From contig CP099846.1 in NCBI GenBank assembly GCA_030062745.1, positions 3,348,001-3,412,000 on the forward strand: 64,000 nt of DNA, given 5' to 3'. The notes beneath the pieces are model-generated. The model did no database searches, had not been told where the DNA came from, and was given only the letters and a program-made list of their open reading frames with translations. The DNA comes from Capitulum mitella. Its lineage: Eukaryota > Arthropoda > Thecostraca > Pollicipedomorpha > Pollicipedidae. A program made the position numbers and the translations under genes. This document shows, piece by piece, positions 4,984-62,500 of this stretch (the first letter of the stretch is position 1; each line of letters starts with the position of its first letter).

Positions 4984-6200
4984 TTAACCCTATTCCCGGC
5001 AGGGGGGGCGGAATCCGCCCCCCCTCGGGTTTTTTGCTTGCCAATTCCAGGCTTTTTGACGCAGCTTCACGAAACTTGGTCACTTTTTCTAGCTATTCCT
5101 TCTACGCGCCGTGACAAAATTTCGAAATTCTATTTTGCTCAGGGGCGGAGCCAGGCAACGTTTTTGGGAGGCACCTCAGGTCATTTTTGGCCATGTTGAG
5201 GGTAAAAGGAAAATGTCTGCCAAAAACAGAGTTTTTAAGATAGAACTTAAAACTTTATATAAATATATAGCTAAATACTTGAGCAATGTGCATATGTAAT
5301 TTTGTTTATCTGAGGTCACTTTACAAGGTCAGGTCAAGGTCAAAAGTCAAAATTTGTTTTTTCGCAATCATTTCGGCGCCGTTTTTTCAAATGCCAAACC
5401 CGAAATATATATGACGTAGAAAGATGCCCTCTACTTGTGTACCAAGTTTCAGCTTGATATCAGGTCAGACCACGGAGCTATGACCTAAAATGTCAGTGCA
5501 CGTACCCTATATCGCAAAAGCCAAAAAATGAATTTTTTGGAATAGAGTGAATTTAATCGATTAAAAACGTTTACAGATAATATTGAATGCACACGACATC
5601 ATTCCAGGTGACCCCAAGGTCACTGGAGGTCATTTAAGGTCAAAGGTCACAAGTTGATCTGAGAAACGTGTGACCATGACAGTTCCCCCTTTTTTATGTC
5701 CCTGGCACCGCCTATGCTAACATTATACAAACATTGTAATGCGATTTGTACTTCTTTAGCATAACATGACTAGCAGAAGCTAAAAAAGTGTTTTGGCCTC
5801 TTTTGTTCATTCCGTTATTGGAAAACTAATCCCCCTATTTTTGAAACCCTGTGAACGCCCATGAATTTTCTCAAAATTTCAAATTTACATACCCATGTTA
5901 AAAGCCCTATCCATAATCTCTTGATTCATGCCAGTTTCATCGAAATCGGTCCATAAACAACGGAGTTATAAGAAGTCAAAAAGTACCCCCCATTTTGACA
6001 TTTTTGCCCCCCTGTATCCACAAATTTCAAAATTTTGAAAATTTCTTTTTATCAAAATGTAGTTCACGTCACGGCAAATCGATTGCCGTTTGTTGCGATG
6101 AAATCGATAAGTAGTTCTCGAGATCTCAGGGGGGGGCCGAATCCGCCCCCCCTGCCGGGAATCGGCCATACCGTCTAGCCCTCCGGGAATAGGGTTAACA
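4984..6200 (+). mobile_element. Family A non-autonomous piggyBac-like element, copy A1 (complete)
   Basis: This 1,217-bp element begins TTAACCCTATTCCCGGCAGG and ends CCGGGAATAGGGTTAA, so it has a 16-bp terminal inverted repeat including TTAA. The TTAA at each end together with CCCTA is the signature of piggyBac-type transposons, which insert at and duplicate TTAA. Just inside the left end is a self-complementary tract (a G-run, cggaatccg, then a C-run); a matching G-run/C-run lies inside the right end. There is no transposase frame, so it would need a helper in trans. Inside are several AGGTCA half-sites, including a perfect direct repeat with one-base spacing at 5637-5649. It is about 98% like copy A2 by eye and belongs to the same subfamily. 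Confidence 0.9.
5637..5649 (+). promoter_or_regulatory. Perfect DR1 nuclear-receptor-type site inside element A1
   Basis: AGGTCA-A-AGGTCA, two half-sites in direct repeat with one base between them, the arrangement known to be bound by HNF4- and RXR/USP-type receptors. It lies in a stretch with further half-sites (accccaaggtcactggaggtca just upstream). Binding is inferred only from the motif. Confidence 0.5.
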
Positions 6201-6228
6201 TCATTTTTAAGCTCGTTTCGTTAAACGT

Positions 6229-7215: not shown

Positions 7216-9077
7216 TTATTAGGAGCGCGCTTTACAATTGCGCATACATATATTTATATCTTATATATATTTATCTGACGTGATGGAGCAATGAAACAAG
7301 ACTGAGAGTTTATGTTGATTCTTTGACTACATGACTGTGTCCGGTTTTGTCCTCTTTAGGTGACTCAGTTATCGCCCAGGCGATTTTAAAGGGTGTCATG
7401 TCAGTGGATTCTGATTTCCATTTATTCCTATCGGACATATCCCGTAGGGCGGTTCTGAGGGGACTAGATCATTTCCTGACAATGAATAACGGCCGAAACT
7501 AGTGTTCATATGCAAATCAGCATTCCCGAATATCTACTAAGCCCTCCGAGGCGAATAAAAGGTCAAAAAAAAGAAATGACCTCAATTCATAATTCTGACT
7601 TGATGTGACTGAGACTGAGCATAGAAAAATACCGACAAAGACTGAGACGAAGACTGAGCATAGTAAAATACCGAGGAAGTAAAATACCGACAATGAAGAT
7701 GACTACTGCTTCGATATTTTGACGTGACGGTCTTCAAGGAGGTCATAGGCCAGTGATCTTTGTCGTTTATGACCCACATTTTCAGGGAACAAGTGGACAA
7801 GTTTTGAGGTCAACTATGCAAAATTCCAAAGCAATAAATAGAGTAATTATCGGTCAACTTCCGAAAAAACCTGAGGAGCGGCTGCCTCAGACTCCTTGTG
7901 CTGGAAAGAGTGACGAGAGTAGTTACAGCAACAAAAGATGAATCTCCGTCTCACCTATTCATTCAGAAAAGTCCTGATCATTTGGCTGAGAACAGATCAT
8001 AAATCAGTGGCAGTCCTTGCCATTCAGCTTTCTGCGTGTGTTTCCACGTCCTTGGTTAGCCTGCAGATACTGATTTCAGATGCACACGGACTTCACAGTG
8101 CACAAACAACGGGAAACCGGCCTTGAGCCTGCCCCGGTCTGCGGAGTTGACCAGATGTTTTGCGGGAACCTGTCGCCCTGCTGAGACGGGACCTGATGAT
8201 GTGGATCACTAGACCGCAATGGGCGTAAATATATTTTGTGAAAGCTATCCCGCTGACTGCGATAGCAACTAACTTGATGGAACACCAGATTCCGGTGTCT
8301 CTCAAAAAAGTTTGGCGAGAGCCTCTGTTCGCGCTGGGTGTGAAATTTCCATCATGAACCACAGAATTCATAGTTTTCTCCAAACATTGTACATACCTTC
8401 AGTTCACCTTCGCCACGTAAATGAACATGTTTTATTTTTATAACTTTCGTCCTAATGTGTGGTTTGGATGGTGTTGGGATGCTGGTCCATACTAAACAAG
8501 TCTCGTTGAGCAGACTTCGGTGCGCAAGTAAGCTTAATTATGGGGTTAATTTCGTCCTAAGCATAAAACTGCCGTACTGAGGTTTATCTGGCGTGAAAAA
8601 ATGTCAAAACACTGATGATCCGTGGCCTCCATCTGGTAATACAGCGCAGGCTGCCTCTGAAGATCGAGCCTCTACACCTCACGTACAACGTGCATGACCC
8701 GACATTTGTAAGCACCGTGGAGACTGTATGCTTGTTTTGTGCGGTATGTCGCGTCTCCGATTAAACGTATACCGACCTGAAGAAGCCCCTGAGAAACCTA
8801 GAAAAACTCAAATACCTACTGGCTCAAAGCTTCGAATTAAGCCGAGCTTCCTTTTCGATTTGAACTTGCTGGTTTTGTATTAAGCCCGCTGCCGCTATTC
8901 GACTATTTATAGCCGTTTTTTTATTGTGATGGGCATTTCGCTTCGCGGCCAATGCAGTGCCTACCGCCTAGTAGGTAACATCGGTACCGTGTATCTATTA
9001 CAAATAACAACAACCCATATGTGCATGTGCGCTTGTTTTAATTTAAGATGTGTGCTTCTTTGTCATAACCAAATAGA
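7216..9077. other. Non-coding stretch, unassigned
   Basis: No supported gene. It holds a short TA patch near 7250-7275 and a small degenerate tandem repeat near 7590-7700 (units built on gactgagcatag and aaaataccgaca). The short open frames have no protein-like character. Confidence 0.45.
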
Positions 9078-9226
9078 TGTTCATAGACGATAAGAAAAAA
9101 GACGAAAAGATTAGCCTCGGGTACGTTCAGGCTCACAAGAAAGAGTGCTTCTTTACTTCGTGCTCTCCTGTATGTCTACTGCTGCACCGAGGTCAGTCTT
9201 TTCATCTTTTTTGTCGTCTATGAACA
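9078..9226. repeat. Inverted repeat, about 40-bp arms, 66-bp loop
   Basis: The left arm (9078-9120, starting TGTTCATAGACGATAAG and ending CCTCGG) is matched by the reverse complement of 9187-9226 with a few mismatches and one small gap. The size and arms would suit a tiny foldback element or a long RNA hairpin. No TTAA or obvious target duplication was seen at the ends. Confidence 0.65.
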
Positions 9227-9386
9227 ACTAGAGTTTCTGTGTTCAACACAAAACAAACAGCAAGTGCAGTAATGCCTGGCATTCAAGGGGCTTTTTGAGA
9301 ATTACAGCCAAGGGATTGTTAACGTTCCCGAGAGCTCTCTCAAAAATGCCTTCCCTTGACAGACTGTGGCTTTGGTGAGAGATGTT

Positions 9387-10606
9387 TTAACCCTATTCCC
9401 GGCAGGGGGGGGGGGGGAATCCGCCCCCCCTCGGGTTTTTTGCTTTCCAATTCCAGGCTTTTTGACGCAGGCTCACGAAACTTGGTGACTTTTCCTAGCT
9501 ATTCCTTCTACGCGCCGTGACAAAATTTCGAAATTCTATTTTGCTCAGGGGCGGAGCCAGGCAACGTTTTTGAGAGGCACCTCAGGCCATTTTTGGCCAT
9601 GTTGAGGGTAAAAGGAAAATGTCTGCCAAAAACAGAGTTTTTAAGATAGAACTTAAAACTTTAAATGAATATATAGCTAAATAATTGGGCAATGTGCATA
9701 TGTAATTTTGTTTATCTGAGGTCACTTTACAAGGTCAGGTCAAGGTCAAAAGTCAAAATTTGTTTTATCGCAATAATTTCGGCGCCGTTTTTTCAAATGC
9801 CAAACCCGAAATACATATGACGTAGAAAAATGCCCTCTACTTGTGTACCAAGTTTGAGCTTGATATCAGGTCAGGTCACGGAGCTATGACCTAAAATGTC
9901 AGTGCACGTACCCTATATCGCAAAAGCCAAAAAATGAATTTTTTGGAATAGAATGAATTTACTCGATTAAAAACGTTTACAGATAATATTGAATGCACAC
10001 GACATCATTCCAGGTGACCCCAAGGTCACTGGAGGTCATTTAAGGTCAAAGGTAACAAGTTGGTCTGAGAAACGTGTGACCATGACAGTTCCCCCTTTTT
10101 TATGTCCCTGGCACCGCCTATGCTAACATTATACAAACATTGTAATGCGATTTGTACTTCTTTAGCATAACATGACTAGCAGAAGCTAAAAAAGTGTTTT
10201 GGCCTCTTTTGTTCATTCCGTTATTGGAAAACTAATCCCCCTATTTTTGAAACCCTGTGAACGCCCATGAATTTTCTCAAAATTTCAAATTTGCATACCT
10301 ATGGTAAAAGCCCTATCCATAATCTCTCGATTGATGCCAGTTTCATCGAAATCGGTCCATAAACAACGGAGTTATAAGAAGTCAAAAAGTACCCCCCATT
10401 TTGACATTTTTGCCCCCCTGTATCCACAAATTTCAAAGTTTTGAAAATTTCTTTTTATCAAAATGTAGTTCACGTCACGGCAAATCGATTGCCGTTTGTT
10501 GCGATGAAATCGGATAAGTAGTTCTCGAGATCTCAGGGGGGGCCGAATCCGCCCCCCCCCTGCCGGGAATCGGCCATACCGTCTAGCCCTCCGGGAATAG
10601 GGTTAA
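9387..10606 (+). mobile_element. Family A non-autonomous piggyBac-like element, copy A2 (complete)
   Basis: 1,220 bp with TTAA at both ends, the same CCCTATTCCCGG terminal repeats and the same G/C tracts as copy A1. It shares A1-type bases along its length (for example gaatgcacacgacatcattccagg), so A1 and A2 form one subfamily. The DR1 site seen in A1 has changed here in its second half (aaggtaac). No transposase frame is present. Confidence 0.9.
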
Positions 10607-11076
10607 CGATCATGGAAATATGCAGTATATTGCAAATGGTATATTTCTTGTAGGGGTTTCAAGTCTTCGCCGTACTCTCTCAGTGGGAATCACTCTCTCC
10701 CTAAAAGAAGTCTCCAGAATCCCTACACAGAAACAAAATGAGAAACGTACAAGTTGACACATTTGATACATTTCTAATTTTCCGCTTGGTTCTTGAACAG
10801 CCTACGTAACTAATGTTGCGAAAATAATTACTGTTCAGCTTTTTCTTCTGCTCCACGCAATCTATTGTCTTGTTAGTCACACCAGACTATTGAGCAAGAT
10901 GCACGGCTAATTAAAAATAACAGACACAAGCCTTCTTTGTGTATCATTGTGCAGTGCTGCAAAGAAGAAGGTCGTATAAAACTGGTTTCTTCGGGCATGC
11001 AAGTTTTAGGAAGGCGTTGCTGCTAAAATTGGATCTGATTGGCCCACTCTAAGGTGTGTCTTTAGTCAAGCCCTCG
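10607..11076. other. Upstream flank of the tyrosine-rich precursor gene
   Basis: About 470 bp between element A2 and the TATA box. No frame or strong repeat was seen. Any enhancer of the precursor gene within this interval would lie directly next to a transposon copy. Confidence 0.35.
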
Positions 11077-11110
11077 TATATAAGCAGGCAGTTTCACCCA
11101 TCCAGCATCA
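11077..11110 (+). promoter_or_regulatory. TATA box and likely start site of the tyrosine-rich precursor gene
   Basis: TATATAAG at 11077-11084 stands about 30 bp before an initiator-like tcatac (A at 11110), and the ATG follows 22 bp later at 11132. The spacing is what is expected of a TATA-driven RNA polymerase II core promoter, which many highly expressed secreted structural protein genes use. Confidence 0.7.
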
Positions 11111-11131
11111 TACAGCTGATTTCCTCCCATC

Positions 11132-11143
11132 ATGAAGTGCATT
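11132..11143 (+). CDS. Precursor gene, exon 1 (MKCI)
   Basis: Four codons (MKCI), then a strong donor gtgagc at 11144. A four-codon first exon ending in phase 0 is a common layout in arthropod cuticle-type genes. Confidence 0.85.
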
Positions 11144-12204
11144 GTGAGCGAAGCAAGCTTGTGTTTACCATTACACATAATACCGCCGTTACAACACAAA
11201 TAACGACTACCTCTGTACTTTTCTAGTAAGCCAAAATAGAAAAAAGCATTTCAGCGTTTACGTCAGCATCCCTTGCATGGGCGGCCTGGTAATTTGCGCT
11301 AAGTGAGAGTGCGGCTTTGTTCCAGGCGCTGCTGTTGGTTGTGGCCACGTGCGCCTCGGCGTACTACTACACGCCGGTGGTGTACAGCGGGTACTACGGC
11401 TACGGCTCTGCCATCTCTCCGCTCTGGGTAAGAGAGGTTCATGTATATTTGTAACGTGTAGTGTCGGGACAATTTTGTTCTGCAGGACTTGAGACTATTC
11501 GTAACTTAGTAAAGTACGTCCATCGAGATGAGGATATTTCTGGGTTCTTCATGAAAAAACGAACGGTATTGGGCAGATGCGATATCTTCGCTTTAGGTTG
11601 GAAAACAGCTACGCTTAAGCACTTCACTGTTTTGTGTAGCTGCCTACTTGGGCCGACTGAGACTAGTCTGATTCATGTCCGATTCATACACTTCGGACAA
11701 ATGCGACAGCACACGGCAACATTCTGAGCATTGATGTCTTTTCTAACTCTGCAGAGGAAGAAGCGGGCTGCCCCGGAGGCTCCCGCCGAGGACCAGAAGG
11801 CTGACGAAGCACTGCTGTACAGCTACTATGCTGCCCAGCCTTACTCCTACTACGACTACGTTCACCTCCTGAAGAAACGCGAGGCTCCCGCTGAGGACCA
11901 GAAGGCTGACGAAGCACTGCTGTACAACTACTATGCTGCCCACCCTTACTCTTCCTACTACAACTACTATCACCTGCTGAAGAAACGTGAGGCCCCCGCT
12001 GAGGATCAGAAGGCTGATGAGGCCCTTCTCTACAGCACCTACTACGGTGGCTACCCGTACTACTCGTCCTACTTCGGCACTCCGATCTTCCGCAAGAAGC
12101 GTGATGTGGACCAGAAGGCCGACGACTCTCTGATGATCTACTCCTCGCCGATGGTTTACAGCGCCTACGGGGCCTACGGCTACCCGTACATCTACAAGAA
12201 GTAA
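11132..12204 (+). CDS. Secreted tyrosine-rich multi-peptide precursor (three coding exons, 187 aa)
   Basis: Joined exons 11132-11143, 11326-11427 and 11755-12204 give 187 residues; both introns have GT..AG ends and phase 0. Residues 1-16 (MKCIALLLVVATCASA) form a signal peptide with an A-x-A cleavage site. The rest is a chain of blocks separated by basic sites RKKR, KKR, KKR and RKKR, which furin- or PC-type enzymes would cut. This predicts a 22-residue leader peptide (YYYTPVVYSGYY...), three related peptides of 35, 33 and 34 residues each carrying EAPAEDQKADEALLY followed by a Tyr/Ala/Ser/Pro tail, and a last 33-residue peptide with DQKADDSLMIY. Each joins an acidic head to a tyrosine-rich tail. 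I do not recognise the family: it could be a cuticle or secreted structural protein, or a peptide precursor. The two middle blocks are very alike in DNA, so they duplicated or converted recently. Confidence 0.88.
11326..11427 (+). CDS. Precursor gene, exon 2 (rest of signal peptide and leader block)
   Basis: The acceptor ttccag ends at 11325 and the donor gtaaga begins at 11428. It encodes 34 residues, from ALLLVVATCASA through the tyrosine-rich YYYTPVVYSGYYGYG to SPLW, with phase 0 at both ends. Confidence 0.87.
11755..12204 (+). CDS. Precursor gene, exon 3 (repeat blocks)
   Basis: The acceptor ctctgcag ends at 11754. The exon opens with RKKR (11755-11766), then block 1 (11767-11871), KKR, block 2 (11881-11979), KKR, block 3 (11989-12090), RKKR and block 4 (12103-12201), stopping at TAA 12202-12204. 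The repeat period is 108-114 bp. Confidence 0.9.
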   Translation, partial: RKKRAAPEAPAEDQKADEALLYSYYAAQPYSYYDYVHLLKKREAPAEDQKADEALLYNYYAAHPYSSYYNYYHLLKKREAPAEDQKADEALLYSTYYGGYPYYSSYFGTPIFRKKRDVDQKADDSLMIYSSPMVYSAYGAYGYPYIYKK

Positions 12205-12217
12205 ACTGCACAAACTG

Positions 12218-12322
12218 ATTAAAAATACTGCAATGACTGTCTGAAACCGTCTGTTATTGCGAGGTCAAAGGGCCTTTCACGCAATGCAGGACTCCTTCTG
12301 CGTTTTTTCGTCTAGCAATAAA
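12218..12322 (+). terminator. Polyadenylation signals of the precursor gene
   Basis: ATTAAA at 12218-12223 and a canonical AATAAA at 12317-12322 lie 14 and 113 bp after the stop codon. The second is the likelier main signal. Confidence 0.6.
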
Positions 12323-13394
12323 TCATCGCCATGAAACTGCCTTTTACGACCCATGTGTTGAATCCAAACTGCTTGGCAACATGGGTTTAGAGACCCATGG
12401 CGCAGGTAGGGCAGCGACGCTACTAACTTGTGACTTTTTACGTTAGTCTGGTGCCTCTATGGTTTGGTAAGGAATGAAATTACCTCAAAATAGCCTTGGC
12501 CTTACCAGCTCTAGAACCGTTCCAGGCACATGTTTCGCAATGTGCCAAGATGCCCTTTACATAAATCGTTTCTCGCTTCAAGGGTATCATAGAAAGGAAG
12601 GCCAGAAAATGAAATAACCAAGAAAACTCGCACATTATACATCCAGGGATACACATAGGCACGACGTGAGGCACACCTAAAATGCACGTATCCTGCGTGG
12701 TGCATACTCTAGTTCTTCTCATAAAGTTTAATACATGGATCGATTACATATAACAAACCTTATAAGCATGTCGTCTTCATCCTGGCTTGCATTCCCATGC
12801 ACAAGCAATGCTTCTCACCAAGATCGCTTTTTAGATAGATTCAGACGGGTGACAAAGATTTTTACGTGATGACACCAATCTCCTTTAATTTTTGTCTTTC
12901 GGAAAGGAACTGAGCCTGCTCCGAAGGCCGAACAGTTAGACCCTTAAACCCTACACCCTTATGCGCAGAGGAGGGTATATTTTAGTAGGGGGACATTATT
13001 TAAACCTTTTTGCAATTTGGTTTTTTAGATATATATTATTCACATTTTCCACGCATTGTGAACACTCATGGATTTCATGAATTTCTAATCGTACAGGCTT
13101 ATAGGAAAATTCTAACTGATTAGTTGGTTTGGTTTATTTAATGTCCATCCGTGCACACACAGTTCTTTCAGGACATCGCGTGCTACAAGATCACAATAAA
13201 ACGCCGCTAAAACGTAAAAGACAAAAAAGGCGCGCACTAAAACGGAGAAGAAAGTTGATCAACTCCAGAGGCGTCTAGTGCCTCACTGGGCAAACTGTTA
13301 CACGCCGACACAGGGCACCCCTGGGTGCTGGCAAGCCGCACGCTCGGCAGGTGGAGCCGTTCTGTGCGCGTCAGGCGGGTATTGCTCACAGCCG
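12323..13394. other. Non-coding stretch; possible left part of a diverged TTAA element
   Basis: No gene supported. A TTAA followed by accctacaccc at 12944 could be the left end of the diverged family A relative that ends at 13688, but the match is weak. Confidence 0.35.
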
Positions 13395-13688
13395 GGTCAC
13401 ATCGGCGAATTGCCTTTCGATTCATCCCAAATGCATCGAAATCGGCTCACGAACGGCGGAGTTACAAGCAAAAAAAAAAGGCCCCATCTGGCCTTGCCCC
13501 TGTATTCACTCCTTTTCAGATTTTCAGGACTGTTGTTTATAAAAATGTGTTTTACGTCACAACAAATCGTTCGTCATTTGTTGCGGTGGAATCGGACGGG
13601 TAGCTCTCAAGATCTCGGGAGGACCGAATAGCCCCCCCCCCCGCGTGAGGGAATACGCCTAGCGCTATGAGTACTGGACCAGGGTTAA
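13395..13688 (+). mobile_element. Diverged relative of family A, right end only
   Basis: The sequence follows the last 300 bp of family A in order (cgattcat..., catcgaaatcgg, cggagttac, acgtcac..caaatcg, tttgttgcg, gagatct-like, C-run, ccaggg) and ends in GGGTTAA at 13688, but identity is low, so it is an older or separate subfamily. Confidence 0.65.
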
Positions 13689-15210
13689 CATAAGCGACCA
13701 CAGCTTCTCTAGAGGCTAACACTTGACAAACAGTATGTTTTCCAAAACTTTTTGTCGAAAAGAGATTCTTTAACCTCTAGGAGTCTGCAGCAGAACCTGG
13801 TTCATTGTCACCATGAATAGTCAACTGGAGTCACGTAAGATGTCAAAACGCGTTGGACTAAATCTTATGGCCTGAATGCCACGTGATGTGTTCGAGCAAA
13901 ACATACTAAATCGTTGTAAACTGGTCATGAAAAATCATCTGGAGTGGGAAAGGAAGTGTAAACAGTTGCAGCTCTGTCATGCCAAATTACGTCAGATGAG
14001 TAATGCAGCTAAAACATTGCAGTCTAACGTGTAAAATTAACGTTCGGCAGTTTACATGGCATGATATAGCCTCAAGATGCGTGTGACCAATAACACGAGT
14101 TGCAGGGTTAAAGGATGCATCATCTCAGATGCGGTCATGTGTGGTCAGCCTAGGTCAAGTAATAACTTGTTTATGTCATGAGAACGAATAGAGACATGAA
14201 TGTAAAACCGGCAATGCGCGTCGACTTAATCACTTTATGCACCACCGGAACATCGGAAGTAATCTAAAACCTCTCAGCTTATGTCAAGGCATGTCAGATG
14301 CACATGTGCATGAGTTTAGACCGGGTCAAATGGACACCTGTCATACATCACAGGAAAGAAACAGTCGGTGCAGGAGCCAGAACATCGCTTGTGTCGAATA
14401 TTGCGACCGTGTAAAATGAGAGATCATACATGGGCAATGCAGAGTTGGACGGCCACTTCAGCGTAAAGATCTCTGAAAAGTTATCACAAACATCAGGTTT
14501 TCCGCAACACATCATCACTTTCTCGCCATATACCTTAGGCTGTCCCGAAAATTGTCGCTAGACCTGGGGATTTTCTTCAGGACACGCGAATTTTATGGGA
14601 AGCGCAACTGGCCACCGAGGTACCCATCTGTTGCCATATCGCATTACGCCCAGTGATCAGCTGATTGCCATAGCATGCTGGATTACCATGCCAGAGCGGC
14701 AAAACTGGAAAAACGCGACCCCCTGAAACCTCTTTTTATATTGACAGAAAGAGGCTGGTATTGCATTTGGTGATGGTGATCGTCAGCCACAGGTATTGAA
14801 AACGGTATTTCTTTGCCGTTCGCACACCACCTCTGACAACGGGCGGGAAAACAAGCACAAAATTGTGACTAAATATGTTTTTGTTTAATCAAACGGTGCC
14901 AGACTGCAGTGCACATCGCAACTCTGAGCTACAGCGTGTCATCCGAACGTGAACGTGAAGTCGCCATTTTCCATTGTGAACATTATGACGGGTTTGCGGG
15001 TCTGTGCGACTCGGACTTATCTTGCAGACTCGGTTTTCCTTCGATTTCGGAGGTCCACCTGTACGTACCCGGATCTAACATGTTTCCTGCGGTAAAAAAA
15101 CTATGTTCAGCTAACATAACCGATCTGTATCCGTTTTCTGCCTCTCGCCCTCCCTCTTAACAACATCCTCATTGTATCAGTCCAGCAGTGTTCAGATGTC
15201 ATCAGCTGAG
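13689..15210. other. Non-coding stretch, unassigned
   Basis: About 1.5 kb without a supported exon, element or obvious repeat. Short open frames look random. Confidence 0.4.
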
Positions 15211-16579
15211 TTAACCCGCGCACTGGAAAGAGGGTCTTTTTGTGCCCCCCCCACCACCTGTTTTTTTTTTAATATCTCGAGAATGGGTCGGAGCTGGCTG
15301 CTGCTTCTTGATGACATATGCGGCAATTGAATAAATCGTCGATTCACGCAGAAAAGTTGAAAATCGGCCGGAACTTTTTGGAGTTTTAAGCATCTGAAGT
15401 CAGACAAACGTAACGAAAACGACGGTTGTCGCTGACAAATGGGAACTTTGTGACAGGACTAGCGTTCTACCAAAGATTTCCGTTTGAACACAACCACGCG
15501 ACGTCATTCGGACATAAGTAATGGATGTACCAAGACCAAAGCCAGGGTCAGTACGGGTCAAGGTCATCAAAGGTCAAGGCCAAACAGCTTGTGACCTGAT
15601 CAAGATTTGCCTTGCAACATGTCAGTTTATATGAAATATGCATTCAAAGACCCTAATAAAAACGCGTGTACGTACACTAATACGATTACATATACCAGGG
15701 TCAGTGAAGGTCAAGGTCATCAAAGGTCAAGGTTAAATGTCTTGTGAACTGTCCCAGATTTGCTTTGCGACATGTTGATTTGTATGAAATATGCATTCAA
15801 AGACCCTAATAAAAACACGTGTGCGCATATGGATACGCTTCTATATACCAGGATCATTTCAGGCCAAGGTCATCAAAGGTCAAGAGCGACTATTTTGTGA
15901 CCTGGTCTAGATTTGCTTTGCGATATGTCGATTTGTATGAAATACGGATTCAAAAACCATAATAGAAACACATTTGGCACATTGATACTCACATGTGTAT
16001 ACATATATACATATACATACATAGATAAACATGAACGCTGGAAGTGACCAAATGTACCGATGTTAGCTACCTTCACTGAAAATACGCCAAAAGATGCGCG
16101 TAGACCCCTTATTTACACTCAAGATATCCCGTGTTGCTCCAAATCTGATCTGCAAAGGATGAAAAAATGATGTCATTGTCAATGGCCTGACATGACCTCA
16201 GCCCGAAATCCCCAGTGAAGACATCGACTGAATGGAAATTGTCGTATTCCACGTCTTAACGCCCAAACAAACACCCTTTTCCCGTTTTGTTCAAAAAGTC
16301 GTACGGCCTGTAGGTGACGAAAAAGTGTTCAAAGTTGACTTTTTCGACCCCGTTTGATCTTGAAGACATTTACCTAGGGCCATGAAAATTGCACACATTG
16401 TAAATCATTATACTCCCACCCTGTCCATAAAATTTCATGCCGTTAGTTCTTTCCGTTTTTGAGATCGTTCCTGAGATCTGAGATCGGAGATCGTTTCTGA
16501 GATCGCACTGGGGGGGGGCACTGTTGTGCCCACTTCCAGTGCGCGTTAGTGCGAAACTCCCTTCCACTGCACGGGTTAA
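15211..16579 (+). mobile_element. Family B non-autonomous TTAA element, copy B1 (complete)
   Basis: This 1,369-bp element begins TTAACCCGCGCACTGGAA and ends with ttccactgcacgggttaa, an imperfect inverted repeat flanked by TTAA. A gtgccccccc tract lies inside the left end and a ggggggggcac tract inside the right end, giving the same architecture as family A with different sequence. The middle holds three tandem units of about 153 bp (from 15541, 15696 and 15848), each with ccagg-tca, aaggtcatcaaaggtcaagg and caaagaccctaataaaaac. No transposase frame is present. Related pieces occur at 35216-35745, 41290-42224 and 42345-42747. Confidence 0.82.
15541..16000. repeat. Three tandem units of about 153 bp inside B1, rich in AAGGTCA
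   Basis: Each unit carries one or two TCAAGGTCA or CAAAGGTCA motifs, the extended half-site bound by FTZ-F1/SF-1- and ERR-type orphan nuclear receptors. A microsatellite of catatac units follows at about 15995-16025. The same array, inverted, is found in B2. Confidence 0.75.
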
Positions 16580-34052: not shown

Positions 34053-35219
34053 CTGCCAATTCTAGGCTTTTTAGCGCAGCTTCACGAAACTTGGTGAATT
34101 TTCCTAGCTATTCTTTCTACGTGCTGTGACAAAATTTCGAAATTCTACTTTGCTCAGGGGCGGAGCCAGGCAACGTTTTTGGGAGGCACCTCATGCCATT
34201 TTTGGCCATGTTCAGGGTAAAAGGAAAATGGCTGTCAAAAACAGAGTTCTGAATGAAGCTAGAACTTAAAACTTTATATGGATGTATAGCTAAATAGAAG
34301 GGCAATGTGCAGATGTAATTTTGATTATCTGAGGTCATTTTACAAGGTCAGGTCAAGGTCAAAAGTCAAAATTTGTTTTTTTCGCAATAATTTCGGCGCC
34401 GTTCTTTCAAATGCCAAACCCGGAATATTTATGACGTAGAAGGGTGCCTTCTACTTGTGTACCAAGTTTCAGCTTGATATCGGGTCGGGTCACGGAGCTA
34501 TGACCTAAAATGTCCGTGCGCGTACCCTATATCGCAATAACCATAAAATAAAATGTTTGAAATAGAGTGAATTCAAATGATTGAAAACGTTTGCAAATAA
34601 CATTAAATGCACACAAGATCATTCCAAGTGACCCCAAGGTCACTGGAGGTCATTTAAGGTCAAAGGTCGCAAGTTGATCTGAGAAACGTGTGACCATGAT
34701 AGTTCCCCCTTTTTCAGGTTCCTGGCACCGCCTATGCTGACATTATACAAACATTGTAATGCGATTTGTACTTCTTTAGTATAACATGACTAGCAGAAGC
34801 CAAAAAGGGTGTTAACCTCTTTTGTTCATCCAGTTGTTAGAAAACTAATCCTCCTATTTTTGAAACCCTGTGAACGCCCATGAATTTTCTCAAAATTTCA
34901 GATTTGCGGACCCATGGTAAAAGCCCTATTCATAATCTCTCGATTCATGCCAGTTTCTTTGAAATCGGTCTATAAACAAAGGAGTTATAAGAAGTCCAAA
35001 AGTACCCCCATTTTGACATTTTTGCCCTCCTGTATGCACAAATTTCAAAATTGTGAGAATTTCTTTTGATAAAATGTAGTTCACGCCACAGCAAATCGAT
35101 TGCCTTTTGTTGCGATAAAATCGGACGAGTAGTTCTCAAGATCTCGAGGGGGGGGGCCGAATCCGCCACCCCCTGCCGGGAATCGACCATACCGTCTAGC
35201 TCTCCGGGAATAGGGTTAA
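33887..35219 (+). mobile_element. Family A element, copy A3, left end rebuilt by an inverted duplication
   Basis: The left TTAACCC end is at 33887 and the right end GGAATAGGGTTAA at 35219. The body from 34053 (tgccaattctaggctttt) matches family A in order, but the normal 40 or so bases after the left G/C tract are replaced by an inverted copy of the left flank. It shares subfamily-2 bases with A4 and A5 (ggatgtatagc, gattgaaaacg, ccaagtgacc). Its right TTAA (35216-35219) is also the terminal TTAA of a family B piece. Confidence 0.85.
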
Positions 35220-39043: not shown

Positions 39044-40260
39044 TTAACCCTATTCCCGACAGGGGGGGCTGAATCCGCCTCCCCTAGGGTTTTTTGTTTG
39101 CCAATTCCAGGCTTTTTAACGCAGCTTTACGAAACTTAGTAACTTTTCCTAGCTATTTTTTCTACGTGCCGTGACAAAATTTCAAAATTCTATTTTGCTC
39201 AGGGGCGGAGCTAGACAACGTTTTTTAGAGGCACCTCAGGCCATTTTTTGCCATGTTGAGGGTAAAAGGAAAATGTCTGCCAAAAACAGAGTTTTAAAGA
39301 TAGAACTTAAAACTTTATATGGATGTATAGCTAAATAGTTTGGCAATGTGCAGATGCAACTTTGTTTATCTGAGGTCATTTTAAAAGGTCAGGTCAAGGT
39401 CAAAAGTCAAAATTGTTTTTTTGCAATAATTTCGGCGCCGTTTTTTTCAAATACCAAACCCAGAATATATATGACGTAGAAGGGTGGCTTCTATTTGTGT
39501 ACCAAGTTTCAGCTTGATATCAGGTCGGGTCACGGAGCTATGACCTAAAATGTCAGTGCGCGTACGCTATATCGCAATAGCCATTAAATTAAATTTTTGA
39601 AATAGAGTGAATTCAAATGATTGAAAACGTTTAAAGATAATATTAAATGCACGCGAGATCATTCCAAGTGACCCCAAGGTCACTGGAGGTCATTTAAGGT
39701 CAAAGGTCACAAGTTGATTTGAGAAACGTGTGACCATGACAGTTCCCCCTTTTTCATGCCCCTGGCACCGCCTATGCTAACATTATACAAACATTGTGTT
39801 GCGATTTGTACTTGTTTAGTACAACATGACTAGCAGAAGTCAAAAAAGTATTTTTGCCTCTTTTGTTCATTCATTTGTTAGAAAACCAATCCTCCTATTT
39901 TTGAAACCCTGTGAACGTCCATGAATTTTCTCAAAATTTCAGATTTGTGTAGCCATGGTAAAAGCCCTATCCATAATCTCTCGATTCATGTCAGTTTCAT
40001 CGAAATCGGTCCATAAACAACGGAGTTATAAGAAGTCCAAAAGTACCCCCCGTTTTGATATTTTTGCCCCCCTGTATCCACACATCTCAAAATTTTGAAA
40101 ATGTCTTTTTATAAAAATGTAGTTCACGTCACGGTAAATCGATTGCCGTTTGTTGCGATGGAATCGGATGAGTAGTTCTCGAGATCTCGGGGGGGGGGGC
40201 CGAATCCGCCCCCCTGCCGGGAATCGACCATACCGTCTAGCCCTCCGGGAATAGGGTTAA
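39044..40260 (+). mobile_element. Family A non-autonomous piggyBac-like element, copy A4 (complete)
   Basis: 1,217 bp between TTAA ends, with terminal repeats ccctattcccg/cgggaataggg. Subfamily-2 bases throughout. It carries the intact direct repeat AGGTCA-A-AGGTCA in ttaaggtcaaaggtcac near 39696. No transposase frame. Confidence 0.9.
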
Positions 40261-41289: not shown

Positions 41290-42224
41290 GATTTTAAGCA
41301 ATACGGGATAGCCTGAGTGTAAATAAGGGTTCTACACGCAACTTTTGGCGTGTTTTCAGTGAAGGTAGCCAACATTGGTACATTTGGTCACTTCCGGCGT
41401 TCATATTTATGTACGTATGTATATGTATGTATGTATGTATGTGCATGTGAGTATCAATGTGCCGAGCGTGTTTTATTGCGGTCTTTAAATGCATATTTCA
41501 TACAAATCGACTTATTGCAAAGCAAATCTGGACCCAGTCACAAAATACTCGCTCTTAACCTTTGATGACCTTGACCCAAAATGACTCCGGTATAAAAAAG
41601 CGTATCCATGTGCGCACACGTGTTTTTATTGGGGTCTTTGAATGCTTATTTCATACAAATCGACATGTCGGAAATCAAATCTGGGACAGTTCACAAGATA
41701 TTTGAACTTGACCTTTGATGACCTTGGCCTTCGCTGACCCTGGAATATGTAAGCGTATCAGTGTGGGCACCCGTGTTTTTATTAGGTTCTTTGAATGCAT
41801 ATTTCATAAAAACCGACATCTTGCAAAACAAATCTGGATCAGGTCACAAACTGTTTGGCCTTGACCTTTGATGACAATGACCCGTATTGACCTCGGATTT
41901 GGTCTTGGTACATCCATTACTTATGCCCGAATGATGTCGCGTGATTGTGTTCAAACGGCAATGTTAGATAGAATGCTGGTTCTTTCCAAAGTTTCCATTT
42001 GTCAGAGACAACCGTCGTTTTCGTTATGTTTGTCTGACTTCAGATGCTTGAAACTTCAAAAATTTCCGGCCGATTTTTAGCTTTTTCTCAGCCAATCGAC
42101 GAATTATTCAATTGCCATAAATGACACCCGGTAGCAGCAACCAGCTCCGATCCGTTCTCGAGATATTTAAGAAAAACCGGCGGGGGAGGGGCACAACAAG
42201 ACCCCCTTCTAGTGCGCGTGTTAA
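41290..42224 (-). mobile_element. Family B copy B2, inverted, one end missing
   Basis: In reverse it matches B1 from its TTAACacGCGCACTaGAA end (42224) through ctcgagaa.ggatcggagctgg, the ggccaaggtcatcaaaggtcaagg units and gaacgccggaagtgacc, to atcccgtattgctt. The right terminal 480 bp of B1 are absent. A (TGTA)n patch lies at 41404-41445. Confidence 0.75.
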
Positions 42225-42344: not shown

Positions 42345-42747
42345 TCTACATGTTGCAAAACAAATCTGGATCAGGTCACAAGCTGATTGACCTTGACCTT
42401 TGATAACCTTGGCCGCCACCGACCCTGGCTTTGGTCTTGGTACACCCCTCATCCTCAGTTATCTTCGGATGATGTCTAACGTTCAAACGATACTCTTACG
42501 TAGAATGTTTGTCCTCTCGCAATGTCCCCATCTGTCTGGTGAAAACCTTTTTTATGTCTGTTTCACTTCAAACGCCTCAAACGTTAAAAATTTCCAGCCC
42601 ATTTTCAGTTTCTTTGCGTTAATCGACGAGTCATTGAAATGTCATAAATGTCACAAAGCGGCAGCGACCAGCTCCAATCCGTACTCGAGATTTTCAAGAA
42701 AAACGAATGGGGGAGGCAAAAGTGCCCACTTCTAGTGTGCGTGTTAA
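42345..42747 (-). mobile_element. Family B copy B3, terminal piece, inverted
   Basis: In reverse it starts TTAACacGCaCACTaGAAG at 42747 and follows B1 through ctcgagtacgga and ttgaccttga-like half-sites. It stops after one internal unit. It lies in the same direction as B2 only 120 bp away, as if the two were a tandem or a rearranged pair. Confidence 0.7.
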
Positions 42748-45367: not shown

Positions 45368-46585
45368 TTAACCCTATTCCCGACAGGGGGGGGGCGGAAT
45401 CCGCCCCCCCTCGGGTTTTTTGCTTGCCAATTCCAGGCTTTTTAACGCAGCCTCACGAAACTTGGTGACTTTTCCTAGCTATTCTTTCTGCGTGCCGTGA
45501 CAAAATTTCAAAATTTTATTTTGCTCAGGGGCGGAGCCAGGCAACGTTTTTGGGAGGCACCTCATGCCATTTTTGGCCATGTTAAGGGTGAAAGGAAAAT
45601 GTCTGCCAAAAACAGAGTTTTTAAGATAGAACTTAAAACTTTATATGGATGTATAGCTCAATAATTGGGCCATGTGCAGATGTAGTTTTATTCTCCTGAG
45701 GTCATTTTACAAGGTCAGGTCAAGGTCAAAAGTCAAAATTTGTTTTCTTCGCTATAATTTCGGGACCGTGCTTTCAAATGCCAAACCCGGAATATATATG
45801 ACGTAGAAGGGTGTTTTCTACTTGTGTACCAAGTTTTAGCCTGATATCAGGTCGGGTCACGGAGCTATGACCTAAAATGTCAGTGCGCGTACCCTATATC
45901 GCAATAGCCATAAAACGAAATTTTTGAAATAGAGTAAATTCAAATGATTGAAAACGTTTAAAAATAATATTAAATGCACAGGAGATCATTCCAAGTGATC
46001 CCAAGGTCACTGGAGGTCATTTAAGGTCAAAGGTCACAACTTGATCTTAGAAACGTGTGACAATGACAGTTCCCCCTTTTTCATGTCCCTGGCACCGCCT
46101 ATGCTAACATTATACAAACATTGTAATGCGATTTGTACTTCTTTAGTATAACATGACTAGCAGAAGCCAAAAAAGGGTGTTTGCCTCTTTTGTTCATCCA
46201 GTTGTTAGAAAACTAATCCTCCTATTTTTGAAACCCTGTGAACGCCCATGAATTTTCTCAAAATTTCATATTTGCGGACCCATGGTAAAATTCCTATTTA
46301 TGATCTCTCGATTCATGCCAGTTTCATCGAAATCGGTCAATAAACAACGGAGTTATAAGAAGTCCAAAAGTACCCCCCATTTTGACATTTTTGCCCCCTT
46401 GTATCCACAAATTTCAAAATTTTGAAAATTTCTTTTTATAAAAATGTAGTTCACGCCACGGCAAATCGATTGCCGTTTGTTGCGATGAAATCGAACGAGT
46501 AGTTCTCGAGATCTCAGGGGTGGCCGAATCCGCCCCCCCTGCCGGGAATCGGCCATACCGCCTAGCCCTCCGGGAATAGGGTTAA
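45368..46585 (+). mobile_element. Family A non-autonomous piggyBac-like element, copy A5 (complete)
   Basis: 1,218 bp with TTAA at both ends. Subfamily-2 type, close to A3 and A4. It retains the AGGTCA-A-AGGTCA site. The G-run inside the right end is shortened (cagggg.tggccgaatccgcc). Confidence 0.9.
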
Positions 46586-46629
46586 GGATCTGTAGATAAG
46601 CCCCTGCCGGCGTATAAAGTACTCGTACA

Positions 46630-56509: not shown

Positions 56510-59500
56510 GTGCCGCCCGGCGGTTCGGCGGAGGGGCCGCGGACTGGGCGGTCTGAGCGGGGCGTGGAGTCAGCGCGACGTCGACCTTTGGTCTGACGAT
56601 GAGGGAGGGGTAGTGGACTGCTTGAGACATCTGTGTCGTGGGGTGTGTCTCGGTCTCTGCATGTCCATATTTGGCAAAATATGCTTTTTTCTTTTGTCGG
56701 CATTTGTGATTTCTCCAGCGCAGTTCCAGCTGACAATCTCACTCAGTCCCTACCAATGCTCTGTGGAAACTTTGTTCGGTAGCTGAGCCATGGTGATGGT
56801 ATGATAAAGCTCTGGGCGTGAATTATTTTTTATTGCCATGCAATGACTGACCTCACCAAAGCTTCATGGTTAAAGTGATGAACCAGTTGTTCATTTCACA
56901 CTGCTTTATGTCTTCTCGACTTTGATCGGGCCGCTGTGGGGCTGTGACCGCAGCGCGCCGTGGACAACGTTTACGTCTGACTTGTTTCAACGGACCCGTC
57001 TGACGTGACCCATTTGCCGTCCGCCGCCAGGCACGGACCATCTGCCGCCGCACCTTGAGAAGTTCAATCACCCGACGGTGTACCCGCTGTCGGCGGGCAG
57101 CCGCGCGCGCCAGGAGGCCGCCCTGCCGGAGGATGAGCCCGCACCCGGCCGCAAGGTCAGCGCACCGCTCATCCCTGGCAGTCCCTTTGCGGGGGGGAGG
57201 GGCGGGGGGTGGTTCGTGGACTTGTTCCTGGGAGGTCTTTCATGGGGAGTCGTGAGCGGGGCTGTTTATGAAGTTGCTTCCTTCTCACCAGGTAGCTTGT
57301 ATTGACGGTGTGTATATTTTGTGGCGGCCTCTGAATGTGGAACCTGGAAAAGAAAACATTGTTCCCTAGTGCCATAGAAAACGTTGCACGATCAAAGTAG
57401 TTGGCCCATGTAATGCCAGTTTTGTGACGTATCAAGGTGAATTTTCTTGATTATTACCGATTTATCATGTATGGGGTGCTTTTGCAGGAGCAGAAGTCAG
57501 CCAGCTGCCTGCGACAGAACGGCCATGCCAAGATGTCAGCATCCAAACCACTGTTTCAGAAGCACAGTAGTGGTGAGTTTTGGTCATCTTGGTACCTCCT
57601 GGGCCCCTACATTCGTAAATGCACTGACTGGCAGGCATCGCTGTTGTGCGGTGGCCTCTGTGACTATCTGTCCCAGATTCAACTGACCCATCAGATCTGA
57701 CCCATGTGACCTCCCTGTCTAAGCCATCTGGTCCATGTGACCGAGGTGGCTTGACCTGTGTGAGCTGTCTAGTGGCCTGTTGGCATAACCCATACAACCA
57801 TTGTGACCTGACCCATACAACACATCTGGTCTAACCCACCTGACCCATGTGACTGGGCCCTTGTGATGTGCTTGTTTGACACATGTAACCATTGTAGCCT
57901 GACTGGTGTGGCCCATCAGTTGTAACCCATATGAGCTTTGTGACCAGGCCCATGTGAGCCGGCCATGCAACCTGGCCCGTGTGACCGGGCCCTTGCGACC
58001 TGACCTTTGTGACTGGGCCCATGTGACCTGACCCTTGTGCCCTGACGCGTGTAGCCCGAGCTGCGTGACCTGACACGTGTGACTTGGCCCATGTGGCCTG
58101 ACCCATGTGACCTGACCCTTGTGACCTGACCCGTGTGACCTGGCCCTTGTGACCTGACCCATGTGACCTGACCCTTGTGACCTGACCCGTGTGACCTGAC
58201 CCGTGTGACTTGACCCGTGTGACCTGACCCGCGTGACCTGACCTTTGTGACTGGGCCCATGTGGCCTGACCCGTGTGACTTGGCCCATGTGGCCTGACCC
58301 ATGTGACCTGATCTGTGTGACCTGACCCATGTAACCTGGCCTGTGTGACCTGACCTTTGTGTCTGGGCCCATGTGACCTGACCCTTGTGCCCTGACGCAT
58401 GTAGCCCGAGCTGCGTGACCTGACACGTGTGACCTGACCCATGTGACCTGACCCATGTGACGTGGCCCATGTGACCTGACCCATGTTGGCCTGACCCATG
58501 TGACCTGCCCCCTGTGACCTGATCCGTGTGACTTGACCCGTGTGACCTGGCCCATGTGGCCTGACCCGTGTGACCTGACCGTGTGGCCGGGCCTGTCGCC
58601 AGCGATGCGCAGTCGGCCCCGTGGCTCGCCCGTCTCCGGGCCCCGGCCGGACAAGGTGGCCTCGGCGCCGGCCCTGAAGCGGGCTCAGGTCGTGCTGCGC
58701 AAGCTCTCCCACTCGAGCCTGATCGCCAAGAAGAAGTCGCAGTCGGCCAAGCTGCGCGCCCAGAAGGCGGAGGACAAGAAGGCGCGCATGTTGCAGAGGT
58801 GAGCGGCCGCGGGTGGGACGACCGGCTGCCTTGCACGTGGTCCAGGCGGCCCTGCGGCTGTTTTTGGCTCAGTGCGGGAAGGCTGCGCAGGGACTTGGTT
58901 TTGTGGTCGGTTTCTCAAAACTGAGGTTTGGCGAGGCAAAGGAGTGAAAAGCGGAAACAGTGAACGGCGAGTCGTTATTACCTGGCGGTGAACGAAGACT
59001 GCTTTTCTTAAACCGTTTAAAGGAAGGAGCTTTCGGAGGCAAGGGGAAGCTGAGGAAATTCTGAGTTTGGATTAATTTTCCCGGCATAAAACGAGTATTG
59101 TTGAAACGTGTGTTTTTTAGCATATGTCTAATGCGGCATTTTTGTGCTAAGCTAAATGGCGTGACGGGATACGTGAGCTCTGCCGTCATTCTGTCAGGTC
59201 ATACCTTTTAGTAAAGATATAAGCGTTGTATGATCTGCTGCCGTGTCCGCCGGACGCCGTCGGACCCTGCACGTCGACCCGGCGTCCCTCCTGGTCCTTG
59301 CGGGCGCCGCCGTGCCCTCCGCGCTCACACGGTGCCGTGACGCTGCGCTCCCCTCGCGCAGACTGGTGGTCTCCAGCAGCCTGCGCTACCCGTCCGCCGG
59401 CCCGGCCATCAAGCTGACCGCGCTGAAGCAGCGGCCCTTCGCGCGGCTGACGCGTGCCCAGATGGCGCGCGGCGGCCGGCCGGGCGCGCGGCCGCCGGCC

Positions 59501-62500
59501 GCCGAGCCGGGCCGGCCGACGCCGCGGCCGGCCGCCGCCAAGACGTCGGCCGTGGACGCGGCGGCCCGTATCCGCCAGCGGGCCACCAAGCTGGCCATGA
59601 TGAGGAAGCTGACGGAGCAGCTGCGCCGGCCGGGCGCCCGGCCCCGCCTGGAGAAGACGCCCCTGCGGCCGGACGCCAGGTGGGCTGAGTGGGACTGAGC
59701 GCGCTCTGGTGCTGGCGGTTACGTGATGGCCGTGCGCGACACGGTGGTGACGTGATGCGAAGTTGTACGTTTGAGCCTGACTTACGAAGGCTTATATTGG
59801 GCTTGAAGCATTCTCTGCGTTTTGTGACTCGTCAAATTAACTGGCCCCGTGTCGCACTTGAAACATTTGACTTTGCAACGATTCAGACACTCGTGTCTTT
59901 GTTTGACTTGCGTACTGTTCGGCCTGCACTGACCACGCACCGTCCTGTTCCAGGTCGGCACGCGAGGCCGGCGCCAAGGTGACGCCAATGCGCCGCTCCT
60001 GGGTGGGCGGCGTGCTGGTGGGGCGCCCGGCGCGCCGCAGCGAGGACGAGCCCGCGACCCGGCCGGCCGGCGGCGAGCGCGCGCCACGCCCGGCCGGCGA
60101 GCGGGCCGCGCGGCCGGCCGCCGCCTCCGCCGCCGCCTCCTCCTCCGCCGGCCAGGGCCCGGCCCGGCCCAAGCTGGCGCTGGCCAGCCGCTCCAAGAGC
60201 AAGTTCTGGTTCTGGGTGGAGGAGCCGGTGCCGCGCAGCGACGGCGAGGAGCCGGCGCCGGCCGAGCGGCCCGTCAGCCCGCGCACGCTGCGCGACGGAC
60301 GCCGCGTGGAGGTGGCGCCCTCCTCGTCGTCGTCCTCGGAGGACGAGGAGGACGGCGGCCGCACGCTGCGTGACGGCACGGTGGTGCGGCCTGCCGGTCC
60401 GGACTGGGAGCGCGGGCGGGCCTCGCGCGCCGCCGCCGCCGCCGCGCCGGCCGCCGCCCGGCCGCTGGCCGCGGCGCCCGCGCCGGCGAGACGACCAGCG
60501 GAGGAGTCGGCGGCGAAACGGGCCGCGAGGTCCGCCAGGGACGCCGAGACGGATAGCAGCTCCGAGGAGGAGGGTGGCAAGGAGAAAGCAAGGTCCAAGG
60601 AAGCCGACAGAAAGAGCTGGCGGCAGAAGAGGAAGTCGGCGGCGGAGAACGGGAGCGGTTTGAGGGGTAACGGCCGAGATCAAACGAAGCCCCGCCTGAT
60701 GGTCGAGTCGAGCTCGTCAGAAGATGAAAGTGTTGCAAATCATAGCGGAACCAGAGAAATCGCGCTTCGGAAGATGGATAAGGTGAGGGCGAAAGGCTCC
60801 GATAGGGAAACCTTACGAGTGAAGACGCTGAAGTCGACTTTGGGCTCGGCAAAACAGTCCGATTTTGGCTCGAAGAGCGATGCGAAGAGATCTGGCGGCA
60901 AGGCGCAGCCAAGGGACGATTCGTCATCGGACGAGGACGAGAAGGAAGAAAGGGAGAACAGGGCGGCGACCAGAAATCGTCGCAGTTTCACCAGTAGAAA
61001 GAAGCCGATGTATAGCTCTGACGAGGAAAGCAGGGATGCCACAAATCAAAACGCAACGAGGACGAAAAGATCTCGGGTCATCCACCAGAAAGCCGATGAC
61101 AAGCTGGTCAAAGGAGAAGCCAAAGACGTGCCTGTGCTCAAGACGAAGGCCAACGGTCGGTCGGCGCATCCGGTCACATCCCATTCGGAGAGGGAGTCCC
61201 GCGACGAGAAGCCAAAACGAGACGGGTCGCACAGGAGCGAATGGAGCAGCTCGGAGGCCGGCACGGCCAGGACTCGCCGCGCGTCGCGGCGGGCCGGCCC
61301 CGTCTGCGACTCGTCCAGCTCAGAGGAGGCTGCGGCGCCGCGCGCGCTGCGGCCCAGCTCGGCGGTGCGCCGGCCGCCGCCGCCGCCGCTGCGGCGCCGC
61401 TCCTGGGAGGCGGCGCCGGCGCCGGCGGCCAGCTCCGGCAGCGAGCGGGCCGCTCGCGTCACCCGCTCGCAGCGGCCCGAGCCGCCGCCCATCGCCGGCG
61501 CCGTCCGCAAGCGCGCGTTCGTGCCAGGCCGGCGCGGCTGGGCCGACAGCAGCAGCGGCACCGAGGAGCGGCCGGCCAGCCCGCCGCGCGCCGCCCGCCG
61601 CCGCCGCCCGCAGCCGGCCGCCGCCAGCTCCAGCAGCGAAGAGCGCGAGCAGGAGCGGCCGGCGCGCCGCGACGGCGCCAAGGCGGCCGCGCCGGCCGAG
61701 CGGCCGCGCCGCACGCTGCGCAAGCGCAGCGAGGCCTTCTTCTCGTACGACATCATCGACTCGGACTCGGACGACGAGCCGGCCGCGCGCGCCAAGCGCA
61801 CGGCCGCGCCCAAACCGGACGCCGCCGCCGCCGCCGCCGCGGCCAGGAAGAGCGGCGGAGACGCGGCGCCTCCGGCCGGGAGCAGGCCGGAGTCGGCGCC
61901 GGGCCGCGCCGCCCCGCCAGCAGTCCTGCCGGCCGACGTCAGGGCGGCCTCGGCCGGCACCAGGGCGGAGCGGGACGTCCGACGGGATCCGCCGCCGGCC
62001 AAGAAGCCCGAGTCGGACGCTGGCGAGCGGCAGCTGAAGAAGAAGCCGCGGCCGCCGTCGCCGGCCGGCGCGCAGCGACCGCCGGCCAAGAAGAAGTCGC
62101 CGGCGAAGGGCGCCGAGGGCACGTTCCAGTCCAAGCTGAAGGAGACGGCCCAGCGGCGGATCACGAAGCTGACGCAGCGGCGCGGCGGCGGCGCCGACCG
62201 CGCGGGCGACGCCGCCGCCAGCCGACCGGCCATGGGCGTGTACGAGTTCGACTCGGACGAGAACCTGGCCTCGCTGACGCTGCGTCAGACGACGGCCGGC
62301 GGCGGCGTCCAGACCGTGTCCGAGGCGACCTGCACTGGCGACGACCGGCCGCCGGCTCCGGCGCCGGCGCCGCCGCCCCCGGCGCCGGCCGAGCGCTCCA
62401 CCTGCACCATCGCCGTCCAGGTCAACATGGACGAGGAGTCGGCCGCGTCCACGGCCTCCCCCGATCCGGCGGCGGCGGCGGCGGCGGCAGCGGCGGCCGC

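Follow-up and report, generated by a model that had tools for sequence, protein, structure and literature searches.

The locus at 11132–12204 on the + strand of a 64,000-nt (64 kb) stretch of Capitulum mitella DNA, called the window here, raises the question of whether a repeated, tyrosine-rich precursor supplies the units of a structural material or a family of long peptides. A sequence-only reading had put forward both answers. As anatomy, what the two share is well supported: a secreted, repeated, Tyr-rich precursor bearing convertase-type sites. Between them the structural reading fits better than the peptide family, because the heads of the units are fixed in sequence and the tails mainly in composition, and because amidation glycines and disulphides are absent. 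The start, the stop, two GT..AG introns, the signal peptide, the RKKR/KKR sites, the acidic heads, the Tyr-rich tails and the TATA box were all found in place, as that reading had them. The features of the gene are listed below.

11077–11084, + strand: TATA box TATATAAG, a consensus match only, starting 55 nt 5' of the ATG
11132–11143, 11326–11427 and 11755–12204, + strand: gene of three exons, product of 187 aa
11132–11143, + strand: exon 1, 12 nt from the ATG at 11132, encoding MKCI
11144–11325, + strand: intron 1, 182 nt, phase 0, GTGAGC...TTCCAG
11326–11427, + strand: exon 2, the remaining signal peptide (ALLLVVATCASA) and segment N0
11362–11427, + strand: segment N0, YYYTPVVYSGYYGYGSAISPLW, 22 aa, a tail without an acidic head, pI 5.52
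11428–11754, + strand: intron 2, 327 nt, phase 0, GTAAGA...TTTTCTAACTCTGCAG, also given as GTAAGA...CTAACTCTGCAG
11755–11766, + strand: site 1, RKKR, fitting furin R-X-K/R-R
11767–11871, + strand: unit 1, 35 aa, pI 4.05, an acidic head followed by a Tyr-rich tail
11872–11880, + strand: site 2, KKR (LLKKR/EAP), dibasic, without P4 Arg
11881–11979, + strand: unit 2, 33 aa, pI 4.49
11980–11988, + strand: site 3, KKR (LLKKR/EAP), dibasic, without P4 Arg
11989–12090, + strand: unit 3, 34 aa, pI 4.05, head with silent differences only from units 1 and 2
12091–12102, + strand: site 4, RKKR, fitting furin R-X-K/R-R
12103–12201, + strand: unit 4, 33 aa, pI 4.58, head DVDQKADDSLMIY shortened and diverged, C-terminal KK
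12202–12204, + strand: stop codon, directly after the KK of unit 4
12218, + strand: ATTAAA, a further poly-A signal candidate, 3' of the stop
12317–12322, + strand: AATAAA, poly-A signal candidate, 3' of the stop

The product begins with a 16-aa signal peptide whose hydrophobic N-terminus (MKCIALLLVVATCASA) has a Kyte-Doolittle mean of +2.97 over residues 4–13, and whose cleavage we take to occur after ASA by the -3,-1 rule. Entry of the chain into the secretory pathway is thus strongly predicted. The mature chain is divided by RKKR, KKR, KKR and RKKR into five segments of 22, 35, 33, 34 and 33 aa, with the ends of the basic sites spaced by 38, 36 and 38 residues. In the DNA, a 41-nt stretch of the head is present in four copies at spacings of 105, 108 and 105 nt, giving a unit period of 35–36 aa. 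The codons of the first RKKR form the exact start of exon 3, so that most of the signal peptide and N0 lie in exon 2 and all acid-headed units in exon 3. Each head carries four or five acidic residues and one Lys, and the tails are 30–42% Tyr with little charge (one Asp in unit 1 and the final KK in unit 4). The 187 residues include 36 Tyr and 8 Gly. No Gly precedes any of the four sites, and the mature chain has no Cys, both cysteines being inside the signal peptide; the common hormone end-modifications are therefore absent. The claim of four acid-headed peptides stood in that all four are there. Its count needs amending, since full cutting would give five segments, the first of them headless, and the head of unit 4 is shorter and diverged. 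The terminal KK of unit 4 may perhaps be the remnant of a further, lost site.

The case that this frame is coding comes from the silent-only differences between the heads, the basic runs and the correctly ordered signals (TATA box, start, splice sites, stop and AATAAA), and not from its length. An open frame of 158 codons was reached in 48 of 200 second-order Markov simulations of positions 8001–16000, so the length is not significant, and two antisense frames are open across the same region. The 15-residue head EAPAEDQKADEALLY is identical in units 1–3, while its DNA differs at eight sites, all eight of them silent third positions. About 29% would be expected to be silent, giving a rough p of 6e-5 when sites are taken as independent, transitions are weighted 4:1 and codon bias is ignored. 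These changes, silent in the + frame, alter both of the open antisense frames. Units 1 and 2 differ at a single site, and unit 3 differs from them at 8 and 7 sites, respectively. When the mature sequence was shuffled 200,000 times, four runs of at least three basic residues never arose, a result that overstates the case because the sites lie within related repeats and are partly copies of each other rather than independent. The third-position GC of the gene is 80%, Tyr is encoded by TAC in 33 of 36 cases and AAG is used in 13 of 15. Across the 64 kb, the word TATATAAG has four + strand and two - strand occurrences. The preferred codons and the TATA box near the ATG would fit high, stage-bound expression.

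We compared the tails with one another in all ten pairs. The pair of units 1 and 2 is the sole one that beats all shuffles (0/1000 as good); for each of the other nine, between 17 and 668 of 1000 shuffles did as well, and three pairs (17, 22 and 23) stand weakly above chance. Conservation thus concerns the sequence of the head but mostly the composition of the tail. Such a pattern would be expected if the work of the tail is bulk work, such as packing and cross-linking, and that of the head is specific, and in this respect the tails resemble structural proteins. The repeats arose by duplication, and the near identity of the heads of units 1 and 2 at the DNA level (one silent difference) may merely reflect recency.

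On these grounds we lean, at a little better than even confidence, towards a secreted structural precursor that would be cut by convertases into acid-headed, Tyr-tailed units joining an extracellular matrix. The chain would enter the secretory pathway through its signal peptide, and proprotein convertases would cut at RKKR and KKR, to judge from the motifs, releasing one bare Tyr-rich peptide and four acid-headed peptides of 33–35 aa. The minimum consensus of furin is R-X-K/R-R, which the two RKKR sites fit and the two LKKR sites do not (2/4 each). L-K-K-R sites suit PC1/3-, PC2- or kexin-like enzymes. Furin would then suit the outer sites, and the inner ones would need a convertase that accepts K-K-R without a P4 Arg, so the sites may be cut in steps. 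Inside the granule, the fixed acidic head might hold the sticky aromatic tail in solution; alternatively, it might bind cations or mineral. After release the tails could pack and their tyrosines could be cross-linked by oxidation, or they could bind other matrix proteins; the destination would be cuticle, shell, eggshell or glue. The signal peptide, the 36 tyrosines, the spaced basic sites, the silent-only head changes, the tails kept mainly in composition, the preferred codons, the TATA box and the absence of Gly before the sites and of Cys from the mature chain support this cut structural precursor. It is weakened by the lack of a Pfam domain, chitin-binding or other, by the failure to recognise a tyrosinase or peroxidase in the window, and by the two sites off the furin consensus. 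Peptide hormones are usually made as multi-copy precursors cut at dibasic sites, which also counts against it.

A more specific form of the proposal, which we offer tentatively as a possibility, is a polyprotein of self-assembling blocks. It would consist of several near-equal 34-residue amphiphiles, each with a fixed acidic head and an interchangeable aromatic tail, cut stepwise by furin at the outer sites and by another convertase at the inner ones, with secretion triggering assembly and cross-linking. If so, the processing of peptide hormones would have been turned to the production of a material.

The chain may instead never be cut. The KKR/RKKR motifs would then serve as basic patches, either matched to acidic heads on adjacent chains or bound to polyanions, and the product would form a coacervate or a sheet; we consider this possibility rather unlikely. 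The alternation of acid and base at a regular 35–36-aa period agrees with it, as does the end of the chain in KK, beyond which there is nothing to free. However, the basic residues cluster into four runs, three or four residues long, each with a terminal Arg as convertases require, and a plain patch needs no such arrangement. This point loses some force because the runs are in part copies of each other.

That the units are long regulatory peptides, freed from a multi-copy signalling precursor in neuroendocrine or gland cells, is doubtful in our judgment. As far as sequence goes, a signal peptide, repeated units and dibasic sites form the standard layout of such precursors, and the head, being the most conserved part, could be the active part. 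Against this, there is neither an amidation Gly nor a disulphide (not every hormone has them), the 30–42% Tyr tails are little conserved in sequence except between units 1 and 2, and the units, besides being acidic, are longer than is typical of multi-copy peptides. We regard as very unlikely a precursor of defence or host-interaction peptides, or a kexin-cut RiPP-type precursor with chemically modified tyrosines. The kexin-type sites between repeated Tyr-rich cores do resemble the repeat precursors processed by Kex2 in fungi, but the headed units are acidic (pI 4.05–4.58, with N0 at 5.52), unlike most antimicrobials, and a fungal origin seems to fit poorly with the intron lengths (182 and 327 nt), the dispersed repeats and the lack of any recognised Pfam domain across the 64 kb. 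A non-functional gene, that is a chance or decayed frame, is extremely improbable: the frame length is ordinary for the local DNA, yet the eight silent-only head differences and the correct order of splice sites, signal peptide, TATA box and poly-A signals speak against it.

The search for a known family matching the 187 residues, which the sequence-only reading had proposed, returned none in Pfam or NCBIfam and a chance match only in the PDB. COX14 was the single hit of the Pfam hmmscan at E<=10, with E 1.8 and a score of 8.8 bits that falls short of its cut-off of 25. By the same scan the Rebers-Riddiford domain (Pfam Chitin_bind_4) of RR-type cuticular proteins is absent, and other Pfam cuticle or shell families had no match above the cut-off, although low-complexity families may be without a Pfam model. 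NCBIfam at E<=1 gave no match, and the single PDB match at E<=10, to a DnaJ homolog (E 0.27), was taken as chance. For the DNA collections we used exon 3 only (149 of 187 aa). Bacterial and archaeal genomes gave 51 pattern hits and viral contigs 8, none confirmed in either, and plasmids gave no match. These collections hold bacterial, archaeal, viral and plasmid DNA, and although Pfam and the PDB cover animals, they do so only for families already described and structures already solved; the lack of a match therefore carries little weight as to novelty. A narrow literature search found, among the matches listed, no family joining Tyr-rich units with convertase sites, and none of the four head strings tried is printed in the papers covered. 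One paper, whose available text deals with a hormone precursor of a beetle and how it affects cuticle genes (PMC7224569), does not describe a relative, and a further one (PMC3654919) proved not relevant. An AlphaFold2 model of exon 3 made without an alignment has a mean pLDDT of 54.8 and is too weak to use; it places helices on the heads and tails between residues 11 and 97, and its pLDDT falls below 50 for residues 98–149.

For a second copy of the gene in the 64 kb, tblastn at E<=10 gave the gene's own repeats matching each other and weak matches at E of at least 0.56; other Tyr-rich frames in the window are AT microsatellites. The search thus showed no further copy nearby. The six-frame Pfam scan of the window, made in 126 pieces of 3–4 kb with X at stops, so that exon- or piece-split domains may escape, found no family at E<=0.01 or at E<=0.05. 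As a control, E. coli K-12 DNA in four pieces was run the same way and yielded seven families, all in the piece with thrA in frame. Since the window has no recognised Pfam domain, no tyrosinase or peroxidase is recognised in it. Rfam at gathering cut-offs and the tRNA search each gave zero in the 64 kb, and a bacterial promoter and terminator scan, not relevant here, was empty.

The window contains dispersed repeats and microsatellites, and its content overall points to eukaryotic, most likely animal, DNA. A repeat of about 310 nt lies at 5895–6204, 10300–10650, 34914–35219, 39955–40260 and 46282–46590, all on the + strand. The four other copies are 90–97% identical to that at 10300, and a diverged copy lies at 13414–13640 (72%); the copies at 10300 and 13414 flank the Tyr-rich precursor gene. 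A 153-nt unit rich in AGGTCA-like words forms two tandem arrays on opposite strands and a single partial copy (86%), at 15542–15971, 41451–41897 and 42348–42428, the units of the second array being 79–88% identical to the first unit. At 57970–58585 there is a satellite of 44 copies of the 14-nt unit ACCTGACCCGTGTG (76% matches); each of the three minus frames is open there over long stretches. A stop-to-stop frame of 1052 codons at 59907–63065 (DNA about 74% GC, third positions 83%) is by eye rich in Ser, Asp and Glu, followed by QTQTPP repeats. It had no match in Pfam at E<=10 or in the PDB at E<=1, and it may belong to a GC-rich gene for a nuclear-type protein.

Tyr-rich secreted proteins that evolve fast are numerous in arthropods and molluscs; the unusual part here is the regular order of head, tail and site. 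If the units are freed and cross-linked, this would be a natural material with a short acid-headed, Tyr-tailed peptide as its monomer and proteolysis as the switch, which would be useful to work on peptide materials and a simple test case for convertases in matrix assembly. If the chain stays uncut, it would be one more fast-evolving low-complexity structural protein.

Several known systems share part of this anatomy. The cuticular proteins of arthropods (RR, Tweedle, CPF, CPAP and low-complexity) are secreted, often Tyr-rich, and have a short first exon ending inside the signal peptide. The present gene is like them in predicted secretion, Tyr richness and such a first exon, whereas its product is without a Pfam cuticle domain, and those families are not known to have regular KKR/RKKR sites. 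Multi-copy neuropeptide and prohormone precursors also have a signal peptide and similar units between dibasic sites; the units here differ in being 33–35 aa long, acidic and Tyr-rich, without an amidation signal or disulphide. Fungal Kex2-processed repeat precursors, for example those of dikaritin RiPPs, combine a signal peptide, Tyr-rich repeats and kexin-type sites, whereas the introns here are longer than is usual for fungi and no Pfam domain was recognised in the window. Mollusc shematrins and similar Tyr-rich shell matrix proteins are secreted and carry basic clusters. In contrast to shematrins, the basic clusters of this product repeat inside the chain and are followed by acidic heads, and Gly makes up 8 of 187 residues. 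A precedent for convertase-cut secreted matrix proteins is given by the cuticle collagens of C. elegans, which are cut by the convertase BLI-4 (PMC10538796). In the available text of that paper they resemble the present case as secreted matrix proteins with a dibasic furin-like site, whose cutting is needed for efficient secretion. By the same text these collagens are cut N-terminally, whereas the Capitulum product has no collagen repeat and carries four sites between its repeated units.
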